Below, one piece after another: positions 24,715-33,446 of a DNA stretch of 38,827 nucleotides. The position numbers and the translations under genes were made by a program. The stretch spans positions 1 to 38,827 of the forward strand of contig SKUB01000194.1 of NCBI GenBank assembly GCA_007122315.1. The letters run 5' to 3'. The stretch's first letter is position 1, and the number at the start of each line of letters is the position of its first letter. The notes under the pieces are model-generated. The model was not told where the DNA came from, did no database searches, and saw nothing but the letters and a program-made list of their open reading frames with translations. The DNA is from Pseudomonadales bacterium. Lineage in GTDB: Bacteria; Pseudomonadota; Gammaproteobacteria; Pseudomonadales; Azotimanducaceae.

Positions 24715-25887
24715 TTGAGAATTCTGGATGTGAGAGACGTCACTGTCGGCCTGCAAGGCGCCGTGACCAATGCGGTGGTCAGCTTCCGGCATCACACAGT
24801 GTCCATAGTGGCGCTGGTCAGCGATCAGATACGAAAGGGCCAGCAGGTCATCGGGTTCGGATTCAACTCGATCGGACGCTTTGCCCAGAGCGGTATCATT
24901 CGGGAGCGGCTCAAGCCGCGGGTGCTAGGTGTCGATCCAGCTGATCTGCTTTTTCCGGACGGATCCGCGTTCGATCCGGAAGCCCTGCTGCGGGTCGCGA
25001 TGCGAGACGAGAAGCCCGGCGGACACGGCGACCGCGCCGGCGCCGTAGCTGCCCTGGAGTTGGCGATCTGGGACCTGAACGCGAAGCTGGCAGACGAGCC
25101 GGCCTACGTCACGATCGGGCGCCACTTCGGATATCAGCAGCCGACCGGGACGGCGGCCGTCTATGCGGCGGGTGGCTACTACCACGGAGATTCCGGTATG
25201 GCTGGCCTCAGGGAGGAGCTGGCGGCCTACGTCGACATGGGTTTCGATGCGTTCAAGATCAAAGTCGGTGGCGCCCCCCTACAGCACGATCTCGAGCGCA
25301 TCAACACTGCGCTGGAAATCGCAGGCGACTCCTCGCGACTGGCAGTGGATGCAAATGGACGATTCGGGGCCTCCGAGGCCGCTACATTCGGGCAGGCCAT
25401 CGCCGGGCTCGGTCTGCGCTGGTTCGAGGAGCCCGGCGATCCGCTGGATTTCGAACTGCTGCGAGGGGTCGCTTCGGCCTATCCCGGCGCCCTCGCGACC
25501 GGCGAAAACCTGTTCAGCTGCGTCGACGCCCGTAATCTGGTCCGCTACGGCGGCATGCGGCCTGGAGCAGACATTTTTCAGATGGATCCCGGTCTCAGCT
25601 ACGGAATCGGCGAATACGCCCGCATGCTCGACGTTCTGGAAACGTACGGCCATGACCGCAGCCAGTGCTTCCCTCATGGCGGGCATCTCATCAATCTGCA
25701 TGTAGCCGTCGGGCTTGGACTCGGCGGCTGCGAGGCTTATCCAGGCGTATTCGGCCCTGTAGGCGGCTATTCCAGACAGTGTGAAATTCGAGATGGGCAG
25801 GTAAAGGCGCCGGACGCGCCGGGTTTCGGTCTGGAAACGAAGCAGGATCTGCGCCCCATGCTGCAGCAACTGGGAGAGGGATCATGA
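24715..25887 (+). CDS. Enolase-superfamily dehydratase, D-tartrate dehydratase-like
   Basis: A 390-residue acid-sugar dehydratase of the mandelate racemase/muconate lactonising enzyme family. The KxK base is KIK (181-183); metal ligands are probably D212 (VDANGRF), E238 or E239 (WFEEPGD) and E264 (GENLF); the general acid/base on the other face is H321 in FPHGGH. These spacings, and the following GLGLGGCEAYPGVFGPVGGYS, fit the D-tartrate dehydratase subgroup. It would abstract a proton next to a carboxylate and lose water. It starts with TTG, four bases after GGGGAG. It overlaps the PanE-like gene by four bases. An aromatic-pathway cycloisomerase is less likely because the KxK and His pattern is of the tartrate/mandelate type. 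Confidence 0.83.
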   Translation: MRILDVRDVTVGLQGAVTNAVVSFRHHTVSIVALVSDQIRKGQQVIGFGFNSIGRFAQSGIIRERLKPRVLGVDPADLLFPDGSAFDPEALLRVAMRDEKPGGHGDRAGAVAALELAIWDLNAKLADEPAYVTIGRHFGYQQPTGTAAVYAAGGYYHGDSGMAGLREELAAYVDMGFDAFKIKVGGAPLQHDLERINTALEIAGDSSRLAVDANGRFGASEAATFGQAIAGLGLRWFEEPGDPLDFELLRGVASAYPGALATGENLFSCVDARNLVRYGGMRPGADIFQMDPGLSYGIGEYARMLDVLETYGHDRSQCFPHGGHLINLHVAVGLGLGGCEAYPGVFGPVGGYSRQCEIRDGQVKAPDAPGFGLETKQDLRPMLQQLGEGS

Positions 25888-26858
25888 AGATCGCGGTCAT
25901 CGGCTGCGGCGCCATGGGTTCCATCTACGCTGGCTTGCTGGCGGCCAGAGGCCATGACGTTCTCGCCATTGATCGTGACGCAACCCACGTCGCAGCCATC
26001 AACACCAAGGGTCTGCGCCTTTCCGGCGCCAGCGGTGAGCGATCCGCGAAACTCACCGCCCGCGAACAGTGCCCGGACGAACCGATGGACCTGGTGATCA
26101 TTTCGGTCAAGGCCCGCCACGTCCGGCAGGCTGCCGAAGACAGCCGGGGTCTGCTGGGACCCGAGACGCACGTCGTCACGATTCAGAACGGGCTCGGTTC
26201 GGCTGCGCAAGTTGCCGAGGTCCTCGGCGAAGACCGGCTCATTGTAGGGGTCGCGCAAGGGTTCGGAGCCTCACGACCAGAGGCGGGACATGCACATCAC
26301 AACGCCATGAAGGTGATCCGGATGGGCGCCCATTCGCGCTGTCCACGCGCTGCCCTGGAAGCCGTCTGCCGATGCTTTACCGAGGCGGGGCTGGAGACCG
26401 AAGCAGTTGACGACGTCCTGGCGGTGCAGTGGGAAAAACTGATCTGCAACGTGGCTTACAGCGCACCGTGTGCCGTCACCGGCATGACCGTAGGTGAAGT
26501 GATGCAGGATGACTACATGGGTGCAGTCAGTCGCATGGCCGCCATGGAAGCGTGGCGAGTTGCCCGGGCGCTGAATGTCGCCATCGACGTGGACGATCCG
26601 GTGACCCTGGTTCGTGATTTTGCCTCCCGCATGCCCGACGCGAAACCCTCGGTCCTGCTGGACGTGGAGGCTGGCAAGCCGAGCGAAGTGGATGTCATCA
26701 ATGGAGCGGTTCCTCGGGAGGCACGGAAAGTAGCACTCGAAGCCCCGGTCAACGCGACGCTGACGGCGCTGGTGCTGACACTCGAGCGACGCGGCAGAGT
26801 CGGCTCGAGGCTTCCGAACGAGCCCAACTCGACGTGGGCACCCGACACGAAGGAGTGA
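25884..26858 (+). CDS. 2-dehydropantoate 2-reductase-like (PanE/ApbA family) reductase
   Basis: A 324-residue NADP-dependent reductase of 2-keto acids. The Rossmann nucleotide site is AVIGCGAMGSIYAGLLAARGHDV at the N-terminus; the catalytic lysine lies in VQWEKLICNVAYSAPCAVTG, and the C-terminal substrate domain contains KPSVLLDVEAGKPSEVDVINGAVPREA, which is characteristic. Start ATGA overlaps the dehydratase stop, so the two are translationally coupled. Beside a tartrate-type dehydratase, whose product would be a 2-keto acid, it more probably reduces that keto acid than makes pantoate (inference). The true panE elsewhere in the genome cannot be judged. Confidence 0.85.
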   Translation: MKIAVIGCGAMGSIYAGLLAARGHDVLAIDRDATHVAAINTKGLRLSGASGERSAKLTAREQCPDEPMDLVIISVKARHVRQAAEDSRGLLGPETHVVTIQNGLGSAAQVAEVLGEDRLIVGVAQGFGASRPEAGHAHHNAMKVIRMGAHSRCPRAALEAVCRCFTEAGLETEAVDDVLAVQWEKLICNVAYSAPCAVTGMTVGEVMQDDYMGAVSRMAAMEAWRVARALNVAIDVDDPVTLVRDFASRMPDAKPSVLLDVEAGKPSEVDVINGAVPREARKVALEAPVNATLTALVLTLERRGRVGSRLPNEPNSTWAPDTKE

Positions 26859-26930: not shown

Positions 26931-28829
26931 ATGGATCGCGTGGTGCCCTTCTCCGGAGTCTACATCGACAGCACCGGCAGCTTCCTGCCGGGCCCGCCGA
27001 TCGACAACGCAGCGATGGATCGTTTCGTCGCACCGCTGAACCGGATGTCCAGTCGCATCAAGCGACGCATCCTGGCAGAGAACGGGATCGCGACGCGCCA
27101 CTACGCCATCGACGAACAGGGCACGACCCGCTTCAGCGTGACGGCCATGGCCGCCGCCGCCGTGCGGGACTGTGCAGCGAAGGTCCGGGATGAGCCCGTG
27201 GGCCTTCTGGCCAGCGCCACGTCAGGAGCTGATCTGCTGCTGCCCGGTCTCGCGAATCAGGTTCAGGCAGAACTCGGCTGGGCTCCGCTCACCACGGCGA
27301 GCCATCACGGGGTGTGCGCCTCCGGCATGCAGGCGCTGGCGGATGCGGCCCGCGCGGTGGATCGGGGTGAGCACGCAGCGGCGATGGTGGTCGCGAGCGA
27401 GTCCCCGTCGCGACTGTTCAAGTGCACGCGCTTCGCGCCCGGCGATTACGACCTCGACTTCGATGCCCACTTTCTGCGCTGGATGCTTTCGGACGCCGCG
27501 GGCGCCTGGCGAGTTTCAGACCGGCCGCCATCCGACCGGGTCAGCCTGAAGCTGCACTTCGTGCACAGCCGCAGCCATGCCGGCGACTATCCCCTGTGCA
27601 TGCAGATGGGTCTGCCCCATGGCGGCGGCAGCGGCTGGCTGGATCATCCCAATGCAGCCGCGGCGGAACGCGCCGGAGCGCTGCTGCTGCGTCAGGACAT
27701 CCGCCTGCTGCCGCATCTGTTCGACGTCGGCATTCACGCCTATGCGGACCTGGTCCGGGCCGGTGCCGTGGATCCGGCGGGCATCGATCACTTTCTCTGT
27801 CACTACTCCTCGGCACGCTTCCGCGGCGTGGTTCGCGAGTGCCTGGAACGTGCGGAGCTGGCGATTCCCGAGCAGCGCTGGTTCACCAATCTGGGTCGCC
27901 GCGGCAACACCGGCGCGGCGTCCATCTTCGTGATGCTCGACGACTTTCTCACTGAACGCGCCGTCCGACCGGGCGAGAAAATCCTGCTGTTCGTACCCGA
28001 GTCGGGGCGCTTCACAGTGTCCTTCGCGCTGCTCGAGGTGGTGGCGCCGGGCGCCGAACGCGGCGAGTCCGTTCTCGTGCAGCGAGTGGCGGAGCCGGCG
28101 CTGGACCTGGATGCCCCACCGCCACCCCATGATCCCGCCGCCATCGACGCCGCCAGCAAACCGGAGCTGGCTGGGCTTCTGCTGGAACTCGCAGGCGTCT
28201 GGAGCGACTTCCGCTCCCGCGCTTGGCGCTCCGGTCCGGTGCGACGCATCGTCGCAGGCCGCTTCCGGCAGCAGGACTACCTGCGCTGGATGGAGGACTG
28301 GATTCCTCAGGTCCGGGAAGGAACTCGCTGGATGCGCACTGCGATGACGAATCTCACCGAGCGCTACGCTGCCTTGGCGGTTCTCATCGAGGACCACGCC
28401 GACGACGAGCAGGACGACTATCAGATCCTGTTCGCGGATTACCGCCGCGCCGGAGGTCACATCGACGATCTCGAGGCCCTGCGTCGCAACCCGGGGGGTG
28501 AAGCCCTGAACGCCTTCCTGCATGCCCGCGCCGAACAGCCGGACGCCGTCGGCCTGCTCGGCGCGATCTACATCATCGAGGGTTCCGGGCAGCGCCTGAT
28601 TCCCGCCCTGTTGCCATTGATTCGGCGCCAGCTCGCCGAGCTCGGGCCAGTGTTCCGCTTCCTCCACTATCACGGCGAGAACGACATGGCGCACCTGGCG
28701 CGCTGGCTGCGCGCCGTCGAGCTGGTCCTCGACAACGCTGAGGACAAGCAGATGGTGATGGATGACATCATTCGCACGGCACGGCGAACGGCCGAGCTGT
28801 ATCTCATGCAGCTCGAGGACGCCGCATGA
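26931..28829 (+). CDS. DarB/StlD-like ketosynthase fused to a heme-oxygenase-like diiron domain
   Basis: A 632-residue fusion. Residues about 10-370 are a KAS III-type thiolase fold with the layout of DarB/StlD ketosynthases: FLPGPPIDN and ATRHYAID near the start, nucleophile C129 (HHGVCASGM), probable H291 (HFLCHYSSARF) and N326 (RRGNTGAAS). A linker rich in Pro and Ala (about 385-410) leads to residues about 415-632, an all-helical heme-oxygenase-like domain. There, E487, E550 (GAIYIIEG) and H581-x3-D585-x2-H588 match the usual diiron ligand pattern. The expected His in the helix after E487 is not clear: the place reads DDYQILF, with H489 close by. It would condense acyl chains and oxidise the product or an iron-bound intermediate (inference). 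The next gene overlaps its stop by four bases (ATGA). Confidence 0.78.
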   Translation: MDRVVPFSGVYIDSTGSFLPGPPIDNAAMDRFVAPLNRMSSRIKRRILAENGIATRHYAIDEQGTTRFSVTAMAAAAVRDCAAKVRDEPVGLLASATSGADLLLPGLANQVQAELGWAPLTTASHHGVCASGMQALADAARAVDRGEHAAAMVVASESPSRLFKCTRFAPGDYDLDFDAHFLRWMLSDAAGAWRVSDRPPSDRVSLKLHFVHSRSHAGDYPLCMQMGLPHGGGSGWLDHPNAAAAERAGALLLRQDIRLLPHLFDVGIHAYADLVRAGAVDPAGIDHFLCHYSSARFRGVVRECLERAELAIPEQRWFTNLGRRGNTGAASIFVMLDDFLTERAVRPGEKILLFVPESGRFTVSFALLEVVAPGAERGESVLVQRVAEPALDLDAPPPPHDPAAIDAASKPELAGLLLELAGVWSDFRSRAWRSGPVRRIVAGRFRQQDYLRWMEDWIPQVREGTRWMRTAMTNLTERYAALAVLIEDHADDEQDDYQILFADYRRAGGHIDDLEALRRNPGGEALNAFLHARAEQPDAVGLLGAIYIIEGSGQRLIPALLPLIRRQLAELGPVFRFLHYHGENDMAHLARWLRAVELVLDNAEDKQMVMDDIIRTARRTAELYLMQLEDAA

Positions 28830-29728
28830 AGCACGCACCCGATTTCGAGACCCTGGCCCACGACACGGACGACCCCAATCCGTGGCTGGCGCTGTATCTC
28901 GATCGCAGCACACCGCTCGGTGATCAGGTCAAGCAGGCCTGGCTTGCGGACTCGAGCTCGCCGTCGCGGCAGTACCTGCTGCCCGTGGTCCGGCCGCTGG
29001 CGCGACTGACCATCGTCCTGTTTCAGCTGCTGAAAATCGTCCTGCCTCGCAACCTGCGTGCCTCCGGCCCACTGCACGGGCTGCTGGTCTGGGGCCTGAC
29101 CCGCTTCGTCCGTCCGGAGGCCAACTGGCTCATCCTGCGGCACTTCCACATCGGTAGCGACATCCTCGCCTTCATCGCCCGCAACGCACCGGAGGGCATC
29201 GACGTCCCGACGGATCCACTGCGGCCGCAGAGCATCGCGGATCTGCGCGACCACGTTTTCGTCCGGCACGACCTGAACCTGTTCAACTTCGTGATCGCGC
29301 TGAACAAGCAACTCAAGGTCCATGATCTACGCATGGAGCCACCCCAACAGGTGGACTTCAGTGATCTCGCGGAGCCCCCTGTGCGCCTCGAGGACATGCC
29401 CAATCGCTGGAGCAACGTGCTCGATCTTCAAACCGCCATCGAGCTGTTCACGCCCGCCTATCAGCTGTTCCTGTCCGACGACGACTTCTGGCGTGCCACC
29501 AACTCGCTGCAGCTCGACGAGACCATTGCCAGCTACTGTGCCGACATCATGCAGGGCCACCAGCATCTTGCGCTGGTGAACAACCGCCATCCTCTGGTGC
29601 CACTGACCACCCTGCGCGCAGGTTTCCGGCTGGTGCTGCACGGCCTGGCTTCGGAAACGCTGCATGCGCTGTTGCGCCGCTACCAGCAGCAGAGCGAGCT
29701 CGCCGGGGACCGTACTGCTGCTCCGTAA
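28826..29728 (+). CDS. Unrecognised protein coupled to the ketosynthase-diiron fusion
   Basis: A 300-residue protein I cannot assign to a characterised family. It has no signal peptide. A hydrophobic and basic central part (LARLTIVLFQLLKIVLPRN, then LHGLLVWGLTRFVRPEANWLILRHFHIGSDILAFIA) could touch a membrane or bury a lipid chain. Later come RHDLNLFNFVIALNKQL and HQHLALVNNRHPLVPL, and there are many His and aromatic residues. Conserved-looking starts such as NPWLALYLDRSTPL suggest a real family. Start ATGA overlaps the upstream stop, so it should be made in fixed ratio with the fusion enzyme and may bind it or handle its acyl product. Function unknown. Confidence 0.8.
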   Translation: MKHAPDFETLAHDTDDPNPWLALYLDRSTPLGDQVKQAWLADSSSPSRQYLLPVVRPLARLTIVLFQLLKIVLPRNLRASGPLHGLLVWGLTRFVRPEANWLILRHFHIGSDILAFIARNAPEGIDVPTDPLRPQSIADLRDHVFVRHDLNLFNFVIALNKQLKVHDLRMEPPQQVDFSDLAEPPVRLEDMPNRWSNVLDLQTAIELFTPAYQLFLSDDDFWRATNSLQLDETIASYCADIMQGHQHLALVNNRHPLVPLTTLRAGFRLVLHGLASETLHALLRRYQQQSELAGDRTAAP

Positions 29729-30603: not shown

Positions 30604-31449
30604 TCAGTGTTTCGAGTCGGCGGGCGGTTCGAGCTGCGCGTCTTCCGCCAGCAGCTTGGGACTGGGGCTGTAGTAACGACGCAACCAGCTGCACAAGCCC
30701 TCGAGCCCGGGAAACAGCGTGCGTTCGTTGATGTTCGCGAGATCCACCTTGTCGCGCACTTCCCACTTCAGGCGGGCCGGAATGATGATCTTGCGGCCTG
30801 ACCCAGGGTGCTGCGCAAGCCAATCATCGATGGCAATCTGGTTGTCCGACACCACCGAGAAGAACGCGTACTGCTGGTAGATTCGGGGATCGATGGAGGG
30901 CGGCTCGAAGAACACCGTGAACGGTTCCGGGGCGAATGCGGCCATCTCCTCGAAAGAACGGATCTCCCGCGCCAGCATCTCGCCGGTGAAAATGCTCGCG
31001 CCTTCCCGATCCAGGGCGGCGCGCAGGGGTTTCGGCAGCTGCTGGTGGACGTGGGTGTAGTCCACCACCCAGACCACACCGTCACGATCGAAACGTGTCA
31101 CATTCGCGGTCGCGAAATGAAGCGCCACGTAGGGCGAGTTGGTCCAATCGAGCAGGCGCGTCGGCAGGCCATAGTGCTGGGCCACGGACACCCAGTTCCA
31201 CAACGAATCCTGCTCCACGACGCTGCCGTGGGCGTACTTGCGGAAGTTGCGGACGAGGTGGCGTTCGAGTTCCGCGTAGCGGCCACCGAGACGCATCAGC
31301 GTGGTCGCCAGCGGATAGCCCGCGTCGGACAAGCCGCGAAACGCATGATGAGAGCGGAAGCGACCGATCTTCTCGTTCCAGGAATCCGCGAACAGTTCCT
31401 CCTGAAGGTGATTCCAGGACTCGATCACAACGGTGTCGATGGCGCTCAT
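30604..31449 (-). CDS. FRG-domain protein
   Basis: A 281-residue protein with the FRG domain, named for the FRG motif (HHAFRGLSDAGYPLATTLMR, near residue 35). The conserved core is VAQHYGLPTRLLDWTNSPYVALHFA, followed by VVWVVDY and later YQQYAFFSVV. The domain is of unknown biochemistry and turns up in stand-alone genes and in mobile or defence-related loci. The frame is open to 31497, but the ATG at 31449 has GGAGG upstream and gives the better N-terminus. The protein is soluble with no membrane segment. The neighbours (amidase, Usp) are ordinary, so no special defence context is evident. Confidence 0.83.
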   Translation of the reverse strand: MSAIDTVVIESWNHLQEELFADSWNEKIGRFRSHHAFRGLSDAGYPLATTLMRLGGRYAELERHLVRNFRKYAHGSVVEQDSLWNWVSVAQHYGLPTRLLDWTNSPYVALHFATANVTRFDRDGVVWVVDYTHVHQQLPKPLRAALDREGASIFTGEMLAREIRSFEEMAAFAPEPFTVFFEPPSIDPRIYQQYAFFSVVSDNQIAIDDWLAQHPGSGRKIIIPARLKWEVRDKVDLANINERTLFPGLEGLCSWLRRYYSPSPKLLAEDAQLEPPADSKH

Positions 31450-31518
31450 GGAGATGAGGGCCTCCGGCAGATTGGGCCATGGCGGCCATGTTCGCACGTC
31501 GCCCGGGCCGGAGCGATG

Positions 31519-32367
31519 TCACGACGATGACGCGGGCACCAGGAGCACCAGGCGGCGCGCATGACGACAGACGGCCTCGGCCGTGCTGCCGAGCAGGAGG
31601 TCCTCGATGGGGTTGCGACCCCGTTTGCCGACGATGATCAGGTCCGCCTCGCGCTCGGCGGCCACCCGCTCGATCTCCTCCGATGGTCGGCCCTCGCCGA
31701 GCAGAACGGTATCGAAACCCGGATCCGGCGCCTGCTGCTCGAGATGCTGGATGTGAGCCGTGATCAGCTCCCGTTCCGCCTCGAGCTCGGGCCGTTCATT
31801 CCACTGTCCTACGGAGACGACTACGCCACGCCGACAGTCCTTCAGCAGAGACATGAATGCGGCCTCTGCCGCAGCTACGGCCGTGGACCCGTCCGTTGCC
31901 AGTAGCGGGCGGCAGACGCCCGCTGTGGGCAGAATCACGGACTGATCGATGGGCGCGAGCAGAACCGGAAACGTCGCATGGCGGATCAGATCCAGCGCGG
32001 TGCTGCCGAGAAACAGATCGCGCAGGGTGCTGTGACCGTGGCTGCCCGCAAGGATGGCTGAGGCCTGACAGTCCCGGGCCACACGCAGCAGTTCGGTCAC
32101 GATCGGGCCGATGGTGACTTCCGTTTCCACTTCGAAACCGTCTTCCCGCAGCGAGCCAGCCAGGGTGTCGAGCCGTTGCTGATAGTGGTCACGGTGGGAG
32201 ACGTCCGGCACGCGCCCATAGACCGAAGCCACGACGTGGACCAGGGTCAGGCGGCGGCACCCGAGGGCGCGCAGTCGCGGCAGCTGACCGTGAAGCCGTT
32301 CGCCCGTCGGCGAGAAGTCCACCGCGACGAGCACCTGATCGAAGATCCTGGTCTGTCCGCTCCTCAT
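31519..32367 (-). CDS. Tandem universal stress protein
   Basis: A 282-residue protein with two UspA domains. Domain 1 (about 5-140) ends AGSHGHSTLRDLFLGSTALDLIRHATFPVLL; domain 2 (about 145-282) ends VGKRGRNPIEDLLLGSTAEAVCRHARRLVLL. Both carry the G-x2-G-x9-G-S/T ATP-binding pattern in recognisable form. Its start overlaps the arsenite-efflux stop by four bases (ATGA), so it is co-translated with that gene. The role is general stress response, and coupling to arsenic resistance is a feature of some bacteria (inference). Confidence 0.9.
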   Translation of the reverse strand: MRSGQTRIFDQVLVAVDFSPTGERLHGQLPRLRALGCRRLTLVHVVASVYGRVPDVSHRDHYQQRLDTLAGSLREDGFEVETEVTIGPIVTELLRVARDCQASAILAGSHGHSTLRDLFLGSTALDLIRHATFPVLLAPIDQSVILPTAGVCRPLLATDGSTAVAAAEAAFMSLLKDCRRGVVVSVGQWNERPELEAERELITAHIQHLEQQAPDPGFDTVLLGEGRPSEEIERVAAEREADLIIVGKRGRNPIEDLLLGSTAEAVCRHARRLVLLVPASSS

Positions 32368-33446
32368 GCCGAATCCTCCGCCGCTTCGGGAAACCAGTGC
32401 CGCGTGCGATTGGCGATGCGCACCAACGCCAGCATCAGTGGGACCTCCACCAGGACACCCACAACCGTGGCGAGTGCTGCGCCCGACTGCAGCCCGAACA
32501 TGGCAATGGCCGCCGCCACCGCCAATTCGAAAAAGTTGCTGGCACCGATCATCGCGCCGGGTGCGGCCACGGCATGCCTTACCTTCCAGGCGCAGGCCCA
32601 GCGGTAGGCGATGAAGAAGATCAGGAAGGTCTGGATGACCAGTGGCACCGCTATCAGCAGGATATGCAGCGGGTTCTCGAGGATCGTCTCACCCTGAAAA
32701 GCGAACAGCAGGACCAGGGTGACCAGCAGGCCGATGGGCGTGACCGGCGCCAGGCGCTTGAGAAACACCGTGTCGAACCACTCGATGCCACGACGCCTGA
32801 TCAGCAGGATCCGAGTCAGATAACCGGCAGCGAAAGGAATGACGATGTAGAGCACGACGGAGAGCGCCACCGTGTCCCAGGGTACGACGATGTTCGACAC
32901 GCCCAGCAGCAGGACCACTATAGGCGCGAAAGCGAACAGCATGATGATGTCGTTCACCGCGACCTGCACCAGGGTATAGGCGGCATCGCCGCGAGTCAGA
33001 TAGCTCCAGACGAACACCATGGCGGTGCAGGGCGCCGCGCCGAGCAGGATCGCGCCGGCCAGATACTGCCGACCGAGTTCGGCCGGAATGAACGGCGCGA
33101 ACACCACCATGAGAAAGAACCAGGCGATCACGAACATGGAGAAGGGCTTGATCAGCCAGTTGACCATGGTGGTGATGGCGAGCCCCTTGGGCTCGCGACG
33201 CACCTCGAGAATGGCGCTGAAGTCGATCTGCACCATCATCGGGTAGATCATCGCCCAGATCAGAATCGCAACCGGAACCGATACCGAGGCGTACTCGAAA
33301 CGTGCCAGGGTTTCCGGCACAGCGGGCAGAAGCTGCCCCAACGCCACGCCGGCGATGATGCACAGCGCCACCCAGACCGTGAGGTAGCGCTCGAACAACC
33401 CCATGCCCTCTTTCGTGGACACTTCGACGACGTCGGCCTGGCTCAT
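32364..33446 (-). CDS. acr3: Acr3-type arsenite efflux carrier
   Basis: A 360-residue inner-membrane carrier with about ten helices that exports arsenite. Family signs: MIYPMMVQIDFSAI (helix 2 region), NWLIKPFSMFVIAW, LLGAAPCTAMVFVWSYLTRGDAAYTLVQVAVND (with the essential Cys in GAAPCTAM) and, near the C-terminal part, APGAMIGASNFFELAVAAAIAMFG. Acr3 works with proton motive force. It is the second gene of an arsR-acr3-usp unit, 77 bases after arsR. No arsC-type reductase or arsH lies in the window. Confidence 0.93.
   Translation of the reverse strand: MSQADVVEVSTKEGMGLFERYLTVWVALCIIAGVALGQLLPAVPETLARFEYASVSVPVAILIWAMIYPMMVQIDFSAILEVRREPKGLAITTMVNWLIKPFSMFVIAWFFLMVVFAPFIPAELGRQYLAGAILLGAAPCTAMVFVWSYLTRGDAAYTLVQVAVNDIIMLFAFAPIVVLLLGVSNIVVPWDTVALSVVLYIVIPFAAGYLTRILLIRRRGIEWFDTVFLKRLAPVTPIGLLVTLVLLFAFQGETILENPLHILLIAVPLVIQTFLIFFIAYRWACAWKVRHAVAAPGAMIGASNFFELAVAAAIAMFGLQSGAALATVVGVLVEVPLMLALVRIANRTRHWFPEAAEDSA

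Follow-up and report, generated by a model that had tools for sequence, protein, structure and literature searches.

The fusion gene and its partner

What would a bacterium make with a ketosynthase and an oxidase joined in one protein, and is this joining a stable trait or an accident of one genome? The question is raised by a 38,827-nucleotide stretch of a Pseudomonadales bacterium of the Azotimanducaceae (contig SKUB01000194.1 of assembly GCA_007122315.1; below, the window). An earlier note, made from its sequence alone, had described an open reading frame (ORF) with a DarB/StlD-like ketosynthase (KS) half and a helical, heme-oxygenase-like half, overlapped over four bases by a second gene that it could assign to no family. 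The overlap is present as an ATGA stop/start, and the second gene does have a family: its product matched DUF6999 (PF22523) with E 1.2e-124 and 415.2 bits, the cut-off being 27. Both halves of the fusion are of known kinds; their fusion, a change in the candidate metal ligands of the oxidase half, and the near-constant DUF6999 partner together make the locus a new variation on them.

The fusion in other genomes

To compare the locus with others, we scanned the genomes of 84,980 species with an alignment of DUF6999. The best 80 of the 348 related stretches found, ranked by likeness to the DUF6999 protein of the window, were kept as named loci; near relatives are over-represented among them, and the other 268 stretches stand outside the counts given for this set. 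Homologues of the KS and the oxidase were encoded directly upstream of DUF6999, on the same strand, in all 80 loci. In 79 of them, isolates included, the two formed one ORF, the exception being L067; among these 79, the KS match fell into two pieces in L048 and L093, and L046 was cut by a contig end. The stop and start codons overlapped by 4 bases in 43 of the 80 loci, and by any length in 62, when starts were chosen by a simple rule; DUF6999 is probably made by translational coupling.

The same arrangement prevailed in two draws of genomes. Among 398 Pseudomonadota genomes, that of the window included, nine encoded DUF6999, always with KS and oxidase adjoining, fused in seven and as separate adjacent genes in two. 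Among 369 genomes of the class, DUF6999 was found in seven, two of which had already been counted (G000 and G137). Three of the five new ones carried the full set, fused in G467 and as separate genes in G523 and G738. G520 had an intact DUF6999 gene (L138, 8892-9992, minus strand) with no KS or oxidase within an 18-kb stretch, and G500 had a broken DUF6999 gene beside a KS remnant (L139, 1760-2367; G500:C95:1437-1595), so that its module is decayed or badly assembled. The two draws together thus gave the full set in 12 of 14 genomes with DUF6999, remnants in one, and an orphan DUF6999 in one. Of 14 control genomes, only that of Caulobacter vibrioides encoded DUF6999.

These searches started from DUF6999, and fusions without it were sought among 58 close-relative genomes (own included), of which 17 matched the fusion protein. 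The fusion or pieces of it were found in six (G000, G001, G003, G004, G005, G036). In three (G041, G043, G049), a KS gene is followed by a separate oxidase gene and then by DUF6999; in G049, two TAA codons stand between the first two. Three other genomes had a KS without an adjoining oxidase (G028, G055, G056), and five gave distant matches alone. In these relatives, DUF6999 followed wherever the fusion was not cut by a contig end. The earlier note had asked whether the second gene always follows; seen from the side of DUF6999, KS and oxidase nearly always precede it, with G520 and G500 departing from this rule. A genome of the same genus, G001, carries two copies of the fusion (L004 and L019), with 86% and 85% identity to that of the window.

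In a tree built from 28 oxidase domains together with five generic relatives, two changes between the fused and the separate state were required, because the fused L007 (from G036) grouped with separate-gene rows. The support was moderate (90/84, 80/62), and L007 and L008 formed long branches; either two fusions or one fusion followed by splits may account for the pattern. Where the genes are separate, they still lie side by side, KS first, oxidase next, and DUF6999 last.

The ketosynthase half

The KS half matched the NCBIfam families NF005293 (StlD/DarB; E 3e-92, 309.6 bits) and NF053539 (DarB; 252.7 bits), in both cases below the curated cut-offs, which are 450 and 550, respectively. We therefore describe it as StlD/DarB-like without placing it in the family. 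Its sequence matched StlD in the PDB (5gk0, E 3.4e-53), and in this alignment C129, H291, and N326, the residues that had been singled out in the earlier note, fell opposite the Cys, H302, and Asn of StlD. H291 met chain position 322, which is H302 according to the title of entry 5gk2; the same offset of 20 puts E157 opposite StlD E154, a cyclisation residue. C129, E157, H291, and N326 are invariant in all 91 rows of fused proteins, some of which represent the same gene fetched twice.

The AlphaFold2 model of the fusion placed StlD first as well (5gk2_D; VIA Z 48.9, root-mean-square deviation (rmsd) 2.2, 361 residues aligned, 34% identity), followed by OleA (4kti_B; Z 38.8, rmsd 2.3, 326 aligned, 19% identity). 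This half has the fold of a ketoacyl synthase III (KAS III) with StlD as its nearest relative, and the Cys-His-Asn triad is present. It has the fold and the triad in common with StlD and DarB, as well as the residue opposite E154, but differs from them in its scores, in its fusion to an oxidase domain, and in the DUF6999 gene that follows.

The oxidase half and its candidate metal site

The C-terminal half was all-helical in the same model (predicted local distance difference test (pLDDT) 86.7 and predicted template modelling score (pTM) 0.74 for the fusion). The Pfam family PF14518 (Haem_oxygenas_2) matched the whole protein with 27.8 bits, just under the gathering score of 28.9, and the oxidase domain alone with 30.8 bits, above it; all 28 oxidase domains of the family matched it at E<=0.01. 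Moreover, a profile of the 28 domains matched 3dde, a protein of heme-oxygenase-like fold, with E 3.9e-11. The heme-oxygenase-like character proposed earlier for this half was thus supported by family and profile matches. Matches to the KS half took up the fold lists obtained with the whole-fusion model, in which heme-oxygenase-like folds were neither seen nor excluded.

Seven residues, H489, E493, D496, E550, H581, D585, and H588, are the same in every one of the 28 oxidase domains and the 91 fused rows. E550, H581, D585, and H588 had been named as candidate ligands before, and remain so. E487, which had been named with them, is Glu in 7 of the 28 domains and 24 of the 91 rows, and its place is taken by the helix invariants H489, E493, and D496. 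Nor was support found for the plain ligand set of heme-oxygenase-like dimetal oxidases (HDOs) that had been assumed. With HDOs such as UndA, SznF, BesC, and CADD it shares the PF14518 match, the helical domain, a helix Glu, and the later H-x3-D-x2-H motif. However, the five generic relatives (L014-L018) all have Tyr at position 489 and His at position 496, together with E493, E550, H581, D585, and H588. Their E-x2-H, which UndA has too, is E-x2-D in the fusion, and an invariant His, H489, stands four residues ahead of the Glu. In the alignment of family rows, no invariant His follows E493 in its helix. 3dde has His at both of the positions aligned with 489 and 496. Because the generic relatives have Tyr and His at these two positions, the metal site looks remodelled in comparison with theirs, as far as can be judged from sequence. 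All seven residues would bind metal; if they do, the site would consist of three His and four carboxylates, reached otherwise than in SznF.

According to a 2026 review, HDO sites mostly have three His and three carboxylates, about a quarter have a fourth carboxylate, a Glu that an auxiliary helix contributes, as in SznF, and one form is mononuclear (PMC13108848). Its section 4 makes no mention of the His/Asp swap described above, and none of the terms fusion, fused, or ketosynthase appears anywhere in the review. In DtpC, an HDO-like protein of Acinetobacter, the spacing of Glu and His is wider (E143/H153; PMC13232832). A figure legend notes that relatives of SznF are diverse in how far the ligands are conserved (PMC10849742); therefore, ligand variation in HDOs is as such not new.

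The DUF6999 partner

The structure model of the DUF6999 protein was all-helical (pLDDT 88.9, pTM 0.88), and nothing similar was found: there was no Foldseek match at E<=0.001 in the PDB or among the viral folds of BFVD, the best VIA match reached Z 3.8 with rmsd 6.6, and a profile search of PDB sequences returned nothing at E<=10. The polar residues that are invariant in 33 rows include D26, R105, H106, N120, H148, D149, D200, D231, and H272, and the most hydrophobic stretch covers residues 50-75. We can only guess that it could be a metal-binding protein or a membrane-associated one. No paper bearing the name DUF6999 was found in the open-licence library searched.

Of two more specific assignments, the first was rejected and the second kept as no more than a suggestion. 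As a diverged heme-oxygenase-like protein, DUF6999 found no support in Foldseek, VIA, or PDB profile searches, and hhalign of A3 against A4 gave a probability of 0.1%; weak Foldseek rows to the diiron enzymes PolF, CmlI, HrmI, and HamA, with TM of 0.09-0.14, were given no weight. The pattern H106...H148-D149...D200/D231 recalls an HD-type metal protein, but no HD family was matched (Pfam, 33 members) and no fold match was obtained.

The operon

The named loci usually run from a fatty-acid hydroxylase (PF04116) through a fatty-acid desaturase (PF00487) and the KS-oxidase fusion to DUF6999. The two upstream families were assigned with Pfam on L039, L040, L042, and L044, and in the other loci by likeness to the L042 proteins. 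In the 75 loci that extend 2.5 kb or more upstream of the KS, the desaturase was present in 61, the hydroxylase in 64, and both in 59. Outside this core, no clustered family occurred in more than 18 of the 80 loci, as determined with crude gene calls on flanks of up to 10 kb and without a search aimed at DarA or DarC.

In four of seven separate-gene loci, but not in L035, L045, and L142, a protein of 190-225 residues is encoded just before the KS. Stretches of it are hydrophobic, many of its histidines are invariant, and it matched no Pfam family at cut-off; its sequence recalls membrane hydroxylases.

A possible pathway and its alternatives

The fusion occurs in many genomes, often near hydroxylase and desaturase genes, and therefore fits a lipid route of the kind condense, then oxidise. 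To the reading that the locus is a conserved lipid-biosynthesis module, in which the KS condenses and cyclises, the fused domain oxidises, and DUF6999 is a dedicated partner, we give slightly less than an even chance. The substrates, step order, metal, product, and role of DUF6999 we infer as follows. Once acyl chains are supplied, the desaturase and the fatty-acid hydroxylase, where present upstream, would tailor them. The StlD/DarB-like KS would then join two fatty acyl thioesters and close the ring, as StlD and DarB do to give 1,3-cyclohexanediones, and the fused dimetal domain would oxidise the ring product with O2, either by aromatisation to a resorcinol or by hydroxylation of the ring or chain, thus standing in for the separate aromatase DarA/StlC. 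DUF6999 could perhaps take charge of the hydrophobic intermediate at the membrane, or catalyse a further step.

In the dialkylresorcinol (DAR) pathway, DarB is the cyclase and DarA the aromatase (PMC3949708), and cyclohexanediones are intermediates (PMC4414361). The module would share with the DarABC operon the kind of KS and a later oxidative step; it would differ in using the fused dimetal domain instead of DarA for this step, and in its DUF6999 partner.

Some results weigh against a condensing and cyclising lipid module. By score, the KS lies outside the curated StlD/DarB and DarB families, and its chemistry may differ. The desaturase and hydroxylase genes were not found beside the module in the window, nor in the window's own group; elsewhere, the genome has three matches to the desaturase family and two to the hydroxylase family. 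Finally, in G520, which has the orphan DUF6999, the only match to the fusion anywhere in the genome was a weak one of KAS III type.

The oxidase domain could also act before the KS, desaturating or oxidising an acyl thioester to provide an unsaturated acceptor for ring closure, and StlD/DarB-type chemistry requires an unsaturated partner. Fatty acids and amino acids are the main substrates of the HDOs characterised so far, and desaturation is among the reactions (PMC13108848). No result presented here orders the steps; most of the named operons already encode a desaturase, as counted above, and we regard this order of events as rather unlikely. Still less do we expect a reaction without ring closure, in which the KS would join chains head to head as OleA does, and the resulting beta-keto acid would lose carbon oxidatively in an UndA-like reaction, yielding a long-chain ketone or olefin. 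OleA is the next-best fold match, and UndA, an HDO, turns fatty acids into 1-alkenes (PMC13108848), but StlD was matched better in both Z score and identity, and the residue aligned with its E154 is invariant.

That the oxidase domain is no catalyst at all, but binds metal in order to stabilise, to sense oxygen, or to protect, and leaves the KS as the sole enzyme, would agree with a candidate ligand set that departs from that of generic relatives. DtpC, tied to oxidative-stress survival in Acinetobacter, offers a loose precedent (PMC13232832). The seven invariant His, Asp, and Glu residues suggest a working metal site instead, and make this a distinctly improbable explanation. As for an error of sequencing or assembly, which the earlier note had named as one of the cases that would refute it, the window comes from an assembly of 396 contigs, and frames are broken in some relatives (G005, L048, L093). 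Nevertheless, a single ORF in all but one of the kept loci, isolates among them, and the same gene order in the separate-gene lineages leave practically no room for an artefact.

Relation to described clusters

Searches of an open-licence library turned up no paper in which a KS is joined to a heme-oxygenase-like domain, nor any product or function for the module. The reports PMC10849742 and PMC13061610, which contain both heme-oxygenase-like and ketosynthase terms, were considered and set aside, as in the parts covered the type I polyketide synthase (PKS) domains and the HDO-type enzymes are separate. The Pbo cluster of Pseudomonas syringae was likewise rejected as a relative, being described, in the source as far as covered, as a nonribosomal peptide synthetase (NRPS)/PKS cluster without such a fusion. 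Other Alcaligenes carry the operon (L069, L077, L083), and a genome paper on Alcaligenes lists an 'NRPS, resorcinol' region (PMC10213877); because of these carriers, the region may be this locus.

Features of the locus

The linker between KS and oxidase varies from 31 to 106 residues in the fused rows and the reference. Upstream of the fusion, the window encodes two mutually overlapping genes, and past the module genes follow on the minus strand (Table 1). The upstream pair was considered as a part of the system and rejected: among 27 loci scanned, MLE and ApbA genes were both beside the module solely in L030. A distant ApbA-like match was seen in L038 in the same scan.

Table 1. Positions of the module, its residues, and adjoining genes (in the window unless a locus is named).
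Feature	Position	Strand	Evidence
KS-heme-oxygenase-like fusion ORF, 632 aa, ATG start	26931..28829	+	ORF and family matches, homologous loci
StlD/DarB-like ketosynthase domain, residues 1-372	26931..28046	+	NF005293, StlD alignment, structure match
C129; E157; H291; N326	27315-27317; 27399-27401; 27801-27803; 27906-27908	+	within ketosynthase domain
Linker, residues 373-407, low model confidence	28047..28151	+	pLDDT <50 at 383-399 and 401-403
Heme-oxygenase-like (Haem_oxygenas_2) domain, residues 408-632	28152..28826	+	PF14518; 3dde profile match
H489-x3-E493-x2-D496; E550; H581-x3-D585-x2-H588	28395-28418; 28578-28580; 28671-28694	+	invariant in oxidase domain
ATGA stop/start overlap, fusion ORF to DUF6999 gene	28826..28829	+	
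DUF6999 protein (PF22523), 300 aa, ATG start, all-helical predicted fold	28826..29728	+	
Protein of 190-225 aa before the KS	L036 7813-8487; L037 5546-6139; L043 11444-12022; L141 2614-3186	- (L043)	
Enolase-superfamily (MR_MLE) and ketopantoate-reductase-like genes	24715-25887 and 25884-26858		
FRG-domain protein, universal stress protein, ACR3-type arsenite efflux transporter	30604-33446	-	

Significance

A more far-reaching reading, which we consider rather unlikely, is that the locus stands for a kind of lipid biosynthesis not yet described from Pseudomonadota. A cyclising KS and a remodelled oxidase in the same chain would then perform oxidative ring chemistry unreported for HDOs, assisted by a metal-dependent DUF6999 partner of new fold; within this reading, the invariant His and Asp residues of DUF6999 would mark it as a second metal-dependent enzyme. 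The joining of KS and oxidase in one chain, together with the partner, makes the pathway directly testable, and there are culturable carriers among the 80 kept loci, in Variovorax, Luteimonas, Alcaligenes, and Collimonas. The locus gives DUF6999 a functional context, and its oxidase domain may add to the metal chemistry known from an oxidase superfamily that is growing fast.

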